Origin: Actinomycetes bacterium
GTDB taxonomy: Bacteria; Actinomycetota; Actinomycetes; DATJPE01
Reading direction: 5' to 3'
Assembly (NCBI GenBank): GCA_035506535.1
Contig: DATJPE010000006.1
Location: forward strand, 1 to 33,938
DNA length: 33,938 bases
The first letter of the stretch is position 1. Each line of letters starts with the position of its first letter. The notes beneath the pieces were generated by a model. The model made no database searches. It was not told the DNA's origin and was given only the letters and a program-made list of their open reading frames with translations. Positions 258 through 6,628 of the stretch are shown here, one piece after another. Made by a program: the position numbers and the translations under genes.

Positions 258-300
258 ATTCCTAAACCGTGTGTCGGAGGTTCGAATCCTCTCGGGGGCA
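258..300 (+). other. 3' fragment of tRNA-Arg(CCU), probable attachment site
   Basis: The segment carries the anticodon loop TTCCTAA (anticodon CCT), variable region, T arm GGAGG-TTCGAAT-CCTCT and acceptor 3' strand CGGGGGC with discriminator A at 300. The 5' half is missing: no GCCCCCG acceptor strand or D arm lies at the expected distance upstream, and two pairs of the anticodon stem are lost. A 3'-half tRNA copy is the usual scar left by tyrosine-recombinase elements that integrate at tRNA 3' ends. The base after the discriminator is not CCA. The tRNA identity rests on the anticodon; the role as an attachment site is inference. Confidence 0.7.
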
Positions 301-408
301 CGAGCGTCGGAGCCGTGACCGGCGCCGGGCTCGCTCGGGGCACGCGAGGCTGATCGAGCGCGGTGACGGAGGGTCCTGCGACAGGAGTACTCGCACGGGA
401 GGGCTTCG

Positions 409-639: not shown

Positions 640-834
640 GGAATCCTGGGCGGCGAGCCTCGCGCGGCGCAGCCACCGGAAACACGAGGTCGCGCCGGTC
701 AGCAGCCGGAGTTCGTAGCGGGTCACGGGCCGCCCCGCGATGCTCGCACGGGAGGTTGTGAGGTAGGACTCTGCTGGCGCACAGGTCCTCGGGCGCACGC
801 TGGTCGTTGAAGCCCGCACGAGACGAGGTCTGCC

Positions 835-1138
835 ATGAAGCGTGTCGTGATCCTGGCTGCCGGAACCGCGGGCACCATGGCCGCGAACAAGCTGCGTCGC
901 CGTCTCGACCGCGACGAGTGGATGATCACCGTGGTCGACCAGGACGGCGACCACCTGTACCAACCGGGGCTGCTCATGCTGGCCTTCGGCCAGTAAATGC
1001 CTGGGAGCTGATCCGCCGCCGTCAGCAGTTCATGCCAGAGGGTGTCGACCTCGCGACGGGACGATCGACCGGGTCGACACCGGGTCGCAGCTCGTCGCGC
1101 TGGTCGACGGGCGAGAGCTGCCGTACGACTACCTGCCA
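835..1138 (+). pseudogene. Decayed sulfide:quinone oxidoreductase (N-terminal remnant)
   Basis: Starts at ATG 835 with MKRVVILAAGTAGTMAANKL, the FAD-binding start of SQR-like flavoproteins, but the first glycine of the GxGxxG motif is Ala. The frame stops at 994-996 after 53 residues. One base lost near 995 would explain this, because homologous sequence resumes in another frame as NAWELIRRRQQFMPEGVDLATG. A second one-base loss near 1060 moves the frame again to IDRVDTGSQLVALVDGRELPYDYL. The remaining roughly three quarters of a normal SQR of about 390 residues is absent, and sequence passes straight into a TusE/DsrC-like region. The enzyme oxidises sulfide to polysulfide at the membrane; this copy cannot be active. 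Damage is read directly; the parent family is by recognition. Confidence 0.75.
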
Positions 1139-1424
1139 GATCCACGACGACGACGAGGGATTCCTGACCGAGTACGACGGGTGGGACGAGGACCTGGCCA
1201 GGGTGCTCGCCGCCCAGATCGGCATCGAGCTCACCGACGCGCACTGGAAGTGCATCCACTTCCTGCGCGACGACTACCGGGCCCAGGGTGAGACCGCGAC
1301 GACCCGGCGGGTCCAGGCCGTGGGCGGGATCCCGGTCAAGGAGCAGTTCGAGCTGTTCCCCAAGAAGCCCGCGAAGAAGATGGCCTACGTCGCCGGGCTG
1401 CCCAAGCCGCACGGCTGCGTGTGA
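1137..1424 (+). pseudogene. TusE/DsrC-family sulfur-carrier protein lacking its start
   Basis: From about 1137 the frame reads DDDEGFLTEYDGWDEDLA, then GIELTDAHWKCIHFLRDDYR, and ends AGLPKPHGCV. This is the DsrC/TusE fold with the invariant penultimate Cys on the mobile C-terminal arm. The second Cys of true DsrC, about ten residues upstream, is absent, as in TusE-type members. No ATG or GTG with a ribosome-binding site precedes the conserved part. The likely deletion that removed the SQR body also removed the TusE N-terminus, leaving a headless frame joined to SQR debris. An ATG at 1032 is in frame but would add about 35 unrelated residues and has no Shine-Dalgarno. Residual expression cannot be excluded. 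The next gene starts 14 bases after the stop. Confidence 0.7.
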
Positions 1425-1438
1425 GAGGAGCGGCTGTC

Positions 1439-1978
1439 ATGACCACCACAGACGTCACGCCCGCGATCGTCCCCAACTTCGACGACGACGAGGAGAGTGG
1501 CGGCCGAAAGCTGGCCATCATCTGCTCGAAGGGCAACCTCGACATGGCCTACCCCGGCCTGATCCTCGCCAATGCTGCTCTGGGGGAGGGCGTGCACACC
1601 GACCTCTTCTTCACGTTCTGGGGCTTCGACATGATCGTGAAGTCGCGGATGCACGACCTTCAGTTCAGCCCGGTCGGCAACTCGGCCATGCACCTGCCCA
1701 TGGGTGATGTCCGGATGCCGCAGGCCCTGGCACCGTTGCCCGGCGTGACCGGCATGGCGACGCACATGCTCAAGAAGCAGATCGCCGACCTCGGGGTCCC
1801 CGAGGTCCCGGAGTTCCTCGACCAGATCGTGGCCGCGGGCGGTCACCTCTGGGCCTGCCGGATGTCGGCGGACATGATGAAGATCGACGAGTCAGACCTT
1901 CGTGACGACGTCGCGGGGATCATCAGCGCCTCTGACTTCATCGAGAAGACCGTGGGAGCCCAGCTGCTGTTCATCTGA
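1439..1978 (+). CDS. DsrE/DsrF/DrsH-like sulfur-relay family protein
   Basis: A 179-residue protein starting at ATG 1439 (GAGAGGAG lies upstream). The core begins at KLAIICSKGNLDMAYPGLIL, followed by GVHTDLFFTFWGFDMI and near the C-terminus GGHLWACRMSADMM. The Cys residues in IICSKG and WACRMS are where DsrE-type proteins carry persulfide-relay cysteines. Family members pass sulfane sulfur between partners such as TusA, TusE/DsrC and rhodaneses, or anchor to membranes. Here the two upstream partners are broken, so the gene appears to be the intact survivor of an SQR-tusE-dsrE operon. Whether it still works alone is unknown. The 106 bases downstream hold a short hairpin and the next promoter region. 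Confidence 0.8.
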   Translation: MTTTDVTPAIVPNFDDDEESGGRKLAIICSKGNLDMAYPGLILANAALGEGVHTDLFFTFWGFDMIVKSRMHDLQFSPVGNSAMHLPMGDVRMPQALAPLPGVTGMATHMLKKQIADLGVPEVPEFLDQIVAAGGHLWACRMSADMMKIDESDLRDDVAGIISASDFIEKTVGAQLLFI

Positions 1979-4541: not shown

Positions 4542-4723
4542 TCCACAGCGACGATCCGCACTCGACTGGTCACGCTGCGCAGGAACTTTCGGCCCGCCCG
4601 GCGCGTCATGCTCTCGGGGTTTGGGTGAGTCGCCCCGCCCGGGTCACGATGGCGTCCTCTGCCGGGGGGGCCACGGGGGCCGCGAGGGTTCCCGGGCCAT
4701 GGTCACGTTGCTCGGAGCCGTCA

Positions 4724-6628
4724 ATGCCCACCGTTCGTCTCATCGCCGCTGGTGCCGTCGCGCTCGTCGGGGCGCTGGTCCTGGCACCGCTCGGCAGCGC
4801 CGACGCCGCCGCCACCTCCACGCTGCCCGCAGGGTTCGCGACGTACGTGCGCAGCGACCTCAGCCCCGAGCAGTGGTCGCTCACGGCGACGCATGCCGAG
4901 GCCGCCTGGACCAAGGCGACCGGCTCCGGCGTCGTCGTCGCGGTCATCGACAGCGGGGTCGACGCGAGCAACCCTGACCTGTCGGGTCAGTTCGTGGCCG
5001 GGGCGCACCTGGCCGACGACGGCGTGACGATCGCCAGCGGGAGCGCCACCGACCAGCTCGGGCACGGCACCCACGTCGCCGGGATCATCGCGGCCAAGCG
5101 CGACGGGCACGGGATCACCGGCATCGCGCCCGACGCGAAGATCATGCCGATCAATGTCGACTCCCCGTTCCTCACCGGCACGGCCGTCGGCAACGCCATC
5201 CGCTGGGCGGTCGACCACAACGCCAAGGTGGTCAACCTCTCGCTCGGCTTCTCGGACATGAAGCTCTACGACTCCGACGTCACCCCGATCTGCTCGGCGG
5301 CCGCCTATGCCGAGTCGCACAAGGTCGTGGTGGTGGCCGCCGCGGGCAACGACGGGGAGGGCGACAACTTCCCCCAGGCACCCGCCGCCTGCGGGACGGT
5401 GCTCTCGGTGACCGACCTCGACAGCACCATGCACGTCACGTCGTACTCCTCCTTCGACGGCTCCGTGGCTCTCGCGGCGCCCGGGGACCAGATCTACTCG
5501 ACGGTCCCCTCGTTCGTCTCGACGACGGACTACGCGGTCATGTCCGGGACGTCGATGGCCTCGCCGTTCGTGGCCGGAGTCGCGGCCCTCGTCCTGCAGC
5601 AGCACCCGACGTGGACCCCGGCGCAGGTGCGTTCCCGGTTGGAGAGCACCGCCGAGGACCTCGGCCCGACCGGCTTCGACCCGCGCTACGGCTACGGAGC
5701 CGTCGACCCGGCAGCCGCGGTCGGCGCCACCGCCCCGCCCCCCGCGGCCACGCCCGCCCTCACCGCGAACGCGTTCGGCTTCGGCAACCACTACGACAGC
5801 GCCGGCAACCTGGTCATCAACGAGACGCTGGTCAGCTGGATCCCCGACCCGACCGCGACGGTGACCGGCTACACCGTGACGGCGTACACGCCCTCCGGCA
5901 CGACGGTGAAGACCCTCCCCGCGACGGCGGTGCGGTGGGAGGCGCCGTACACCATCGGCGGGTACGTCGTGACCGCCCAGACCGCCGCAGGACCGATCGT
6001 CGCCCCCCCGGTGTGGTACAGCCTGGCCGAGCAGACACCCCCGAGCAGCTTCCAGGTCAAGGCGCTGCAGACGGTCAGGGCCACCTGGAACAGCAAGGCC
6101 GGCGTGGTCGTCAGCTGGACCAACCCGGCCGCGAACAAGGGGCACGCGGACGGCGTCTTCATCCAGCTCGACGGCCAGATCGTGGGGCAGCACAACGGGA
6201 CGATGCCCACCCACCTCACCATCCCGGCCGCGCACGTCCCCCCCGGTGACCTCACCGTGGACGTCTTCGTGCAGTCCAGCGTCGACGGCACCATCGCGGC
6301 CTCGCACACCAGGCTCTCGGCGCGCGTTCCCTTCTCGGCGACCGGGACGCGGATCGGCAGCTCGCGCTACCGCGTGACCCTGCAGCTCGCGCCCAGCTGG
6401 GGGCGCAAGGCCTGCCACTCGGTGCACTGCAACGGCGTGGCGGTGCACGTGGTCAGTGTCGGACGGACGTACGGGGACTACCTCGACGAGCTGGGACAGG
6501 CCGTGGTGACCGTCCGCAACAAGGCGCACCTGACCAAGCTGACGGTCCGCGTGGTGAGCGTCTCGTCGAAGTACCGCAAGCTCGACATGACGTCGCTGAA
6601 GGTGGTGCTCCCGCCGCTCAAGGGCTAG
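4724..6628 (+). CDS. Secreted subtilisin-like serine protease (S8 family)
   Basis: The start is ATG 4724 because CGGAG lies 7 bases upstream and a signal peptide begins there (MPTVRL, hydrophobic run to LGSADAAA, cleavage near residue 30). An upstream in-frame GTG at 4625 would bury the signal. The catalytic triad is Asp76 (VIDSGVD), His114 (GHGTHVAG) and Ser277 (SGTSMASPFVAG), with oxyanion-hole Asn209 (AAGND). No long propeptide is seen. Residues from about 340 to 634 form beta-rich fibronectin-type-III-like repeats with a Cys-x4-Cys pair (KACHSVHC) near the end. There is no LPxTG sorting motif or C-terminal membrane anchor, so it is probably released. Its 3' end overlaps the convergent TetR gene by 11 bases. 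The 182 bases upstream hold no clear promoter. Confidence 0.88.
   Translation: MPTVRLIAAGAVALVGALVLAPLGSADAAATSTLPAGFATYVRSDLSPEQWSLTATHAEAAWTKATGSGVVVAVIDSGVDASNPDLSGQFVAGAHLADDGVTIASGSATDQLGHGTHVAGIIAAKRDGHGITGIAPDAKIMPINVDSPFLTGTAVGNAIRWAVDHNAKVVNLSLGFSDMKLYDSDVTPICSAAAYAESHKVVVVAAAGNDGEGDNFPQAPAACGTVLSVTDLDSTMHVTSYSSFDGSVALAAPGDQIYSTVPSFVSTTDYAVMSGTSMASPFVAGVAALVLQQHPTWTPAQVRSRLESTAEDLGPTGFDPRYGYGAVDPAAAVGATAPPPAATPALTANAFGFGNHYDSAGNLVINETLVSWIPDPTATVTGYTVTAYTPSGTTVKTLPATAVRWEAPYTIGGYVVTAQTAAGPIVAPPVWYSLAEQTPPSSFQVKALQTVRATWNSKAGVVVSWTNPAANKGHADGVFIQLDGQIVGQHNGTMPTHLTIPAAHVPPGDLTVDVFVQSSVDGTIAASHTRLSARVPFSATGTRIGSSRYRVTLQLAPSWGRKACHSVHCNGVAVHVVSVGRTYGDYLDELGQAVVTVRNKAHLTKLTVRVVSVSSKYRKLDMTSLKVVLPPLKG

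Follow-up and report, generated by a model that had tools for sequence, protein, structure and literature searches.

The DNA analysed here (the window) is the whole of contig C6, 33,938 bp in length, from a draft genome of 3.35 Mb in 102 contigs that is 96.5% complete. At 0.8–1.4 kb from the left end of the contig lies a locus composed of a remnant of a type III sulfide:quinone reductase (SQR) gene, a deletion, a beheaded TusE/DsrC-like gene and an intact DsrE2-like gene. The coordinates of these features are collected in Table 1. A small membrane-like frame at 410–638 had no good match in the loci of relatives among the matches listed.

Table 1. Features at the left end of the window.
Feature	Position	Strand	Basis or remark
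43-bp copy of the 3' part of tRNA-Arg(CCT) (att); element end to the left, chromosome to the right	259..301	+	identical to the 3' part of the tRNA
Open frame of TusE with out-of-frame SQR sequence; possible chimera (predicted)	807..1424	+	
First frame of the SQR remnant: 53 aa of the N-terminal, FAD-binding part	835..993	+	NF049943 match; ATG at 835, last codon (Gln) ends at 993
First one-base frame shift and resulting TAA stop	994..996	+	
SQR remnant, second frame	996..1061	+	
SQR remnant, third frame; second one-base shift at about 1058–1061	1058..1135	+	
Deletion junction	1135..1140	.	comparison with relatives; ~0.98 kb missing
TusE/DsrC-like gene without native start and first ~10 codons; C-terminal GLPKPHGCV, last Cys kept	1137..1424	+	profile matches
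DsrE2-like sulfur carrier gene, intact	1421..1978	+	Pfam PF13686

The att copy upstream of the locus has its counterpart on contig C71, where an intact tRNA-Arg(CCT) gene is located at 1092–1166 (G000:C71:1-1166, locus L025). Next to the tRNA, C71:1-861 encodes a tyrosine-type integrase with its catalytic domain split over two frames at profile position 109. The frame break lies near 600–700 of C71. This split may mean that the element can no longer move, or that the end of the contig is badly sequenced. With att copies at both ends and an integrase beside the intact tRNA, the arrangement is that of a tRNA-integrated element known from its two ends. Positions 1–258 of the window are most likely the far end of this element, and the sequence from 302 onwards would be old chromosome. 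Of the relatives' 80 loci, 30 were scanned, and none of these contains a tRNA-Arg.

The 53-residue product of the first SQR frame matches the NCBIfam model of type III SQR, NF049943, from profile positions 1 to 51 of 406 (E 1.1e-19). At 70.6 bits it falls short of the curated cut-off of 525 bits, which is set over the full profile; in the genome search the remnant scored 67.6 bits with one stop inside. Likeness to the SQRs of this model lies in that match, and the difference from them in what follows: positions 835–1135 hold only the first quarter of SQR (~24% of the gene), spread over three frames, and a Gly of the FAD motif is changed. The original prediction had described two one-base frame shifts near 995 and 1060, a Gly-to-Ala change in the FAD motif and a deletion of about three quarters of the gene, and each of these was borne out. 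The shifts were placed at 994–996 and 1058–1061. Gly8, the first Gly of the FAD-binding GxGxxG start, is conserved in 99% of 72 relatives and is Ala here, so the intact motif of a functional type III SQR is missing. Pro50, conserved in 100% of the relatives, is likewise Ala. The cysteines of the central and C-terminal parts of the enzyme, presumably its redox cysteines, are gone with the deleted part. One-base shifts, a substitution in the FAD motif and a deletion thus occur together within the 300 bp of the remnant. With these disabling lesions in the window and intact orthologues in the relatives, SQR bears the marks of a pseudogene.

Since NF049943 is titled as a "selenoprotein subtype", selenocysteine recoding was considered and rejected: all 72 SQR frames of the relatives run 409–440 codons to their first stop, giving no sign of recoding, and the stop in the window is TAA. 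A full-text literature search found no paper on sulfide quinone oxidoreductase as a selenoprotein in Actinobacteria.

The TusE/DsrC-like gene reads from 1140 (profile match from 1137) to a stop ending at 1424. Despite its missing start, the product passes the cut-off of TIGR03342 (74.8 bits against 53.5, E 6.2e-21); it also matches PF04358 (E 1.3e-28), and the profile match extends from position 6 through the end. It shares the conserved C-terminal Cys with the TusE/DsrC/DsvC family of sulfur relay proteins, and unlike members of that family it is without a native start and a complete N-terminus. The TusE proteins of the relatives carry ~10 residues (such as MPVxxIxGR) ahead of the point where the window's TusE begins, which agrees with the earlier reading of a deletion that runs into TusE/DsrC and removes its start. 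Immediately downstream, the DsrE-like gene that had been described as intact does have a complete frame (1421–1978). Its product scores 105.9 against Pfam PF13686, over the cut-off of 25, but only 110.8 bits against the DsrE2 equivalog NF047629, below the curated cut-off of 210, and for that reason it is named DsrE2-like.

The missing length was gauged in relatives, counting from the codon that corresponds to the final SQR codon (1133–1135) up to the TusE codon at 1140. In 58 of 71 relatives SQR lies directly before TusE, and the missing stretch measures 938–1055 bp with a median of 985. The other 13 have a longer SQR-TusE spacing, against which the loss would amount to ~1.4–1.7 kb (1390–1741 bp); the examples read (L038, L044, L093 and L045) hold a DUF1641-like frame there, a name given by reading rather than from a family scan. 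In a tree of TusE, DsrE2 and the SQR pieces, the window falls among the direct-type relatives with weak support, which makes ~0.98 kb the better estimate. Measured against the relatives, the loss takes in the TusE start and ~10 codons.

An intact SQR-TusE-DsrE2 cluster was readily found in relatives. When named genomes were searched with the DsrE2 protein, the best 80 of 400 related stretches were kept, and 72 of these have an SQR start before TusE. In a set of 60 relatives, none is closer to the window's organism than membership of one class. The SQR frame is uninterrupted and ends normally in all 72. One relative (L080) has a full SQR gene with matches to solved SQRs, among them 8dhk and 6oi5. 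Another, L074, looked like a damaged SQR locus, an appearance explained by a run of N over its SQR start. The eight loci without an SQR start are L041, L042, L055, L066, L092, L097, L058 and L114. The first three retain the 3' part of SQR and are cut by contig ends, L066, L092 and L097 have too little upstream DNA for the presence of SQR to be judged, and L058 and L114 are without SQR. A second sample, partly overlapping the first, comprised 393 genomes of the class. DsrE2 was present in 30 of them (E <= 1e-40) and SQR in 32 (E <= 1e-60); 28 of the 30 DsrE2 genomes carry an SQR orthologue, on the same contig in 26 cases and on different contigs in G020 and G042. The two DsrE2 genomes without SQR are that of the window and G015, which is 78% complete and is the source of L058. 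From these comparisons, the usual cluster order is SQR-(DUF1641)-TusE-DsrE2, and because this order is conserved among relatives, the arrangement in the window is not a matter of chance. A full-text literature search found no paper on sulfide quinone with TusE and DsrE2 or with DUF1641.

Of the two SQR-less loci, L114 is among the closest known counterparts of the window's locus. In L114 (Streptosporangiaceae bacterium NEAU-GS5), with features spanning ~4687–5525, SQR is gone, the N-terminus of TusE is cut and DsrE2 is intact, as in the window. The cut in TusE is deeper, with the match starting only at residue 27 of the TusE piece in the window; unlike the window, a permease-like fragment adjoins and no in-frame start precedes 4861. 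L114 is apparently an independent, parallel loss of SQR. In L058 (G015:C380), a TusE-DsrE2 pair stands without SQR, and a frame upstream on the other strand was read as CoA-disulfide-reductase-like, an arrangement suggesting that TusE and DsrE2 can work with a different partner.

No intact SQR exists elsewhere in the assembly at E <= 1e-60. The best candidate for a second SQR, a flavoprotein on contig C16, was rejected as a paralogue with only ~31% identity to the SQRs of relatives; its structure matches are to solved SQRs and flavocytochrome c sulfide dehydrogenases. More distant flavoproteins are also present in the genome. The assembly holds no second DsrC-family gene, the TusE of the window being the only one. 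A DUF1641 gene on G000:C30 (L118) is followed by frames that read as hydrogenase small-subunit-like and large-subunit-like. It was not counted as a member of the sulfur cluster, as it sits beside the hydrogenase small-subunit-like frame and away from sulfur genes. These frames raise the prospect that the organism may use hydrogen.

The extent of the decay was assessed at columns conserved in at least 90% of the 72 relatives. Changes in the window affect 2 of 27 such columns in the SQR remnant (Gly8 and Pro50), 1 of 42 for TusE and 3 of 91 for DsrE2. Identity of the SQR remnant to its relatives is lower than the identities of TusE and DsrE2 predict, with 3 of 72 relatives lower still. The remnant is nonetheless close to its relatives and aligns with them throughout, so the decay looks recent. 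The high GC3 of the three SQR pieces (0.89, 0.77 and 0.96, compared to 0.98 for TusE and 0.90 for DsrE2), together with the mild excess of divergence, points only weakly to decay beyond the visible lesions. Judged by these sequences, the decay would be young or its extra divergence hardly measurable. The original prediction had spoken of an operon in decay; this is strictly borne out only for SQR and the TusE start, as the body of TusE and DsrE2 show no decay.

Taken together, the locus is very probably a recently formed pseudogene derived from an ancestral SQR-TusE-DsrE2 cluster by a ~1-kb deletion plus small lesions. Decay of SQR and the beheading of TusE draw good support from the intact clusters of relatives and from the lack of an intact copy elsewhere in the assembly. 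The ancestral state would have been a cluster of the kind common in Actinomycetes. The deletion would have removed the opening codons of TusE together with the final three quarters of SQR, and the remaining SQR start would have gained two one-base losses and the FAD-motif substitution. SQR may have been lost when it was no longer needed, leaving a TusE that would either not be expressed or be translated, with poor initiation, as a chimera, and a DsrE2 that may be usable alone.

It is unlikely, though worth weighing, that the locus is instead an artefact of assembly or sequencing near a contig end and that the organism really carries SQR, TusE and DsrE2 in an undamaged cluster. Nearly all relatives have such an undamaged cluster. 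The window spans an entire contig with the locus near its left end, and the integrase near the end of C71 is also frameshifted, so that poor local sequence at contig ends is conceivable. Such an error would have to account for three kinds of lesion, including a ~1-kb loss, in a stretch that is otherwise intact; on either side, DsrE2 and DUF2252 have complete frames. Moreover, a Pfam scan of 19 other frames of the window matched 17 to families in one frame (2/2, 10/10 and 5/7), and the two without a match include one that was wrongly picked, indicating that base errors are infrequent in this contig.

The TusE frame itself is open from 762 to 1421, with the nearest upstream stop at 759 and in-frame starts at ATG 1032, GTG 918 and TTG 807, so a longer chimera could be read from any of the three. 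The TusE product might then be a chimera or might not be made at all. That a new functional gene has arisen, with TusE extended at its N-terminus by out-of-frame SQR sequence from ATG 1032 or upstream, is unlikely. The open frame and the conserved TusE body (a single changed column) speak for it, but by eye no convincing ribosome-binding site precedes 1032, 918 or 807, an open frame of such length is estimated to be not unusual in G+C-rich DNA, and the lost N-terminal segment of TusE is similar among relatives. Improbable, too, is a living chimera in which TusE, with its SQR-derived out-of-frame N-terminus, would act with DsrE2 in SQR-independent sulfur transfer. The suggestion that decay followed integration of a nearby element is right as to the element, and its att copy lies only ~530 bp upstream of the SQR start, but the insertion is very unlikely to have caused the decay: both the SQR start and the preceding 530 bp belong to the chromosomal flank of the att copy, the lesions lie more than 530 bp from that copy, and the deletion is internal to the cluster, away from the element border.

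Read as a recently formed pseudogene, the locus is an ordinary case of pseudogenisation, in which the enzyme is known, the cluster is conserved and the neighboring gene is clipped; it adds a further example and changes no general idea. If the sequence is right, it shows the loss of SQR cleanly, the sulfur carriers having stayed behind, and the genome would probably be unable to oxidise sulfide via the usual actinobacterial type III SQR. That the carriers can persist once the enzyme is gone is suggested by the loss in L114 and by the natural TusE-DsrE2 pair without SQR in L058.
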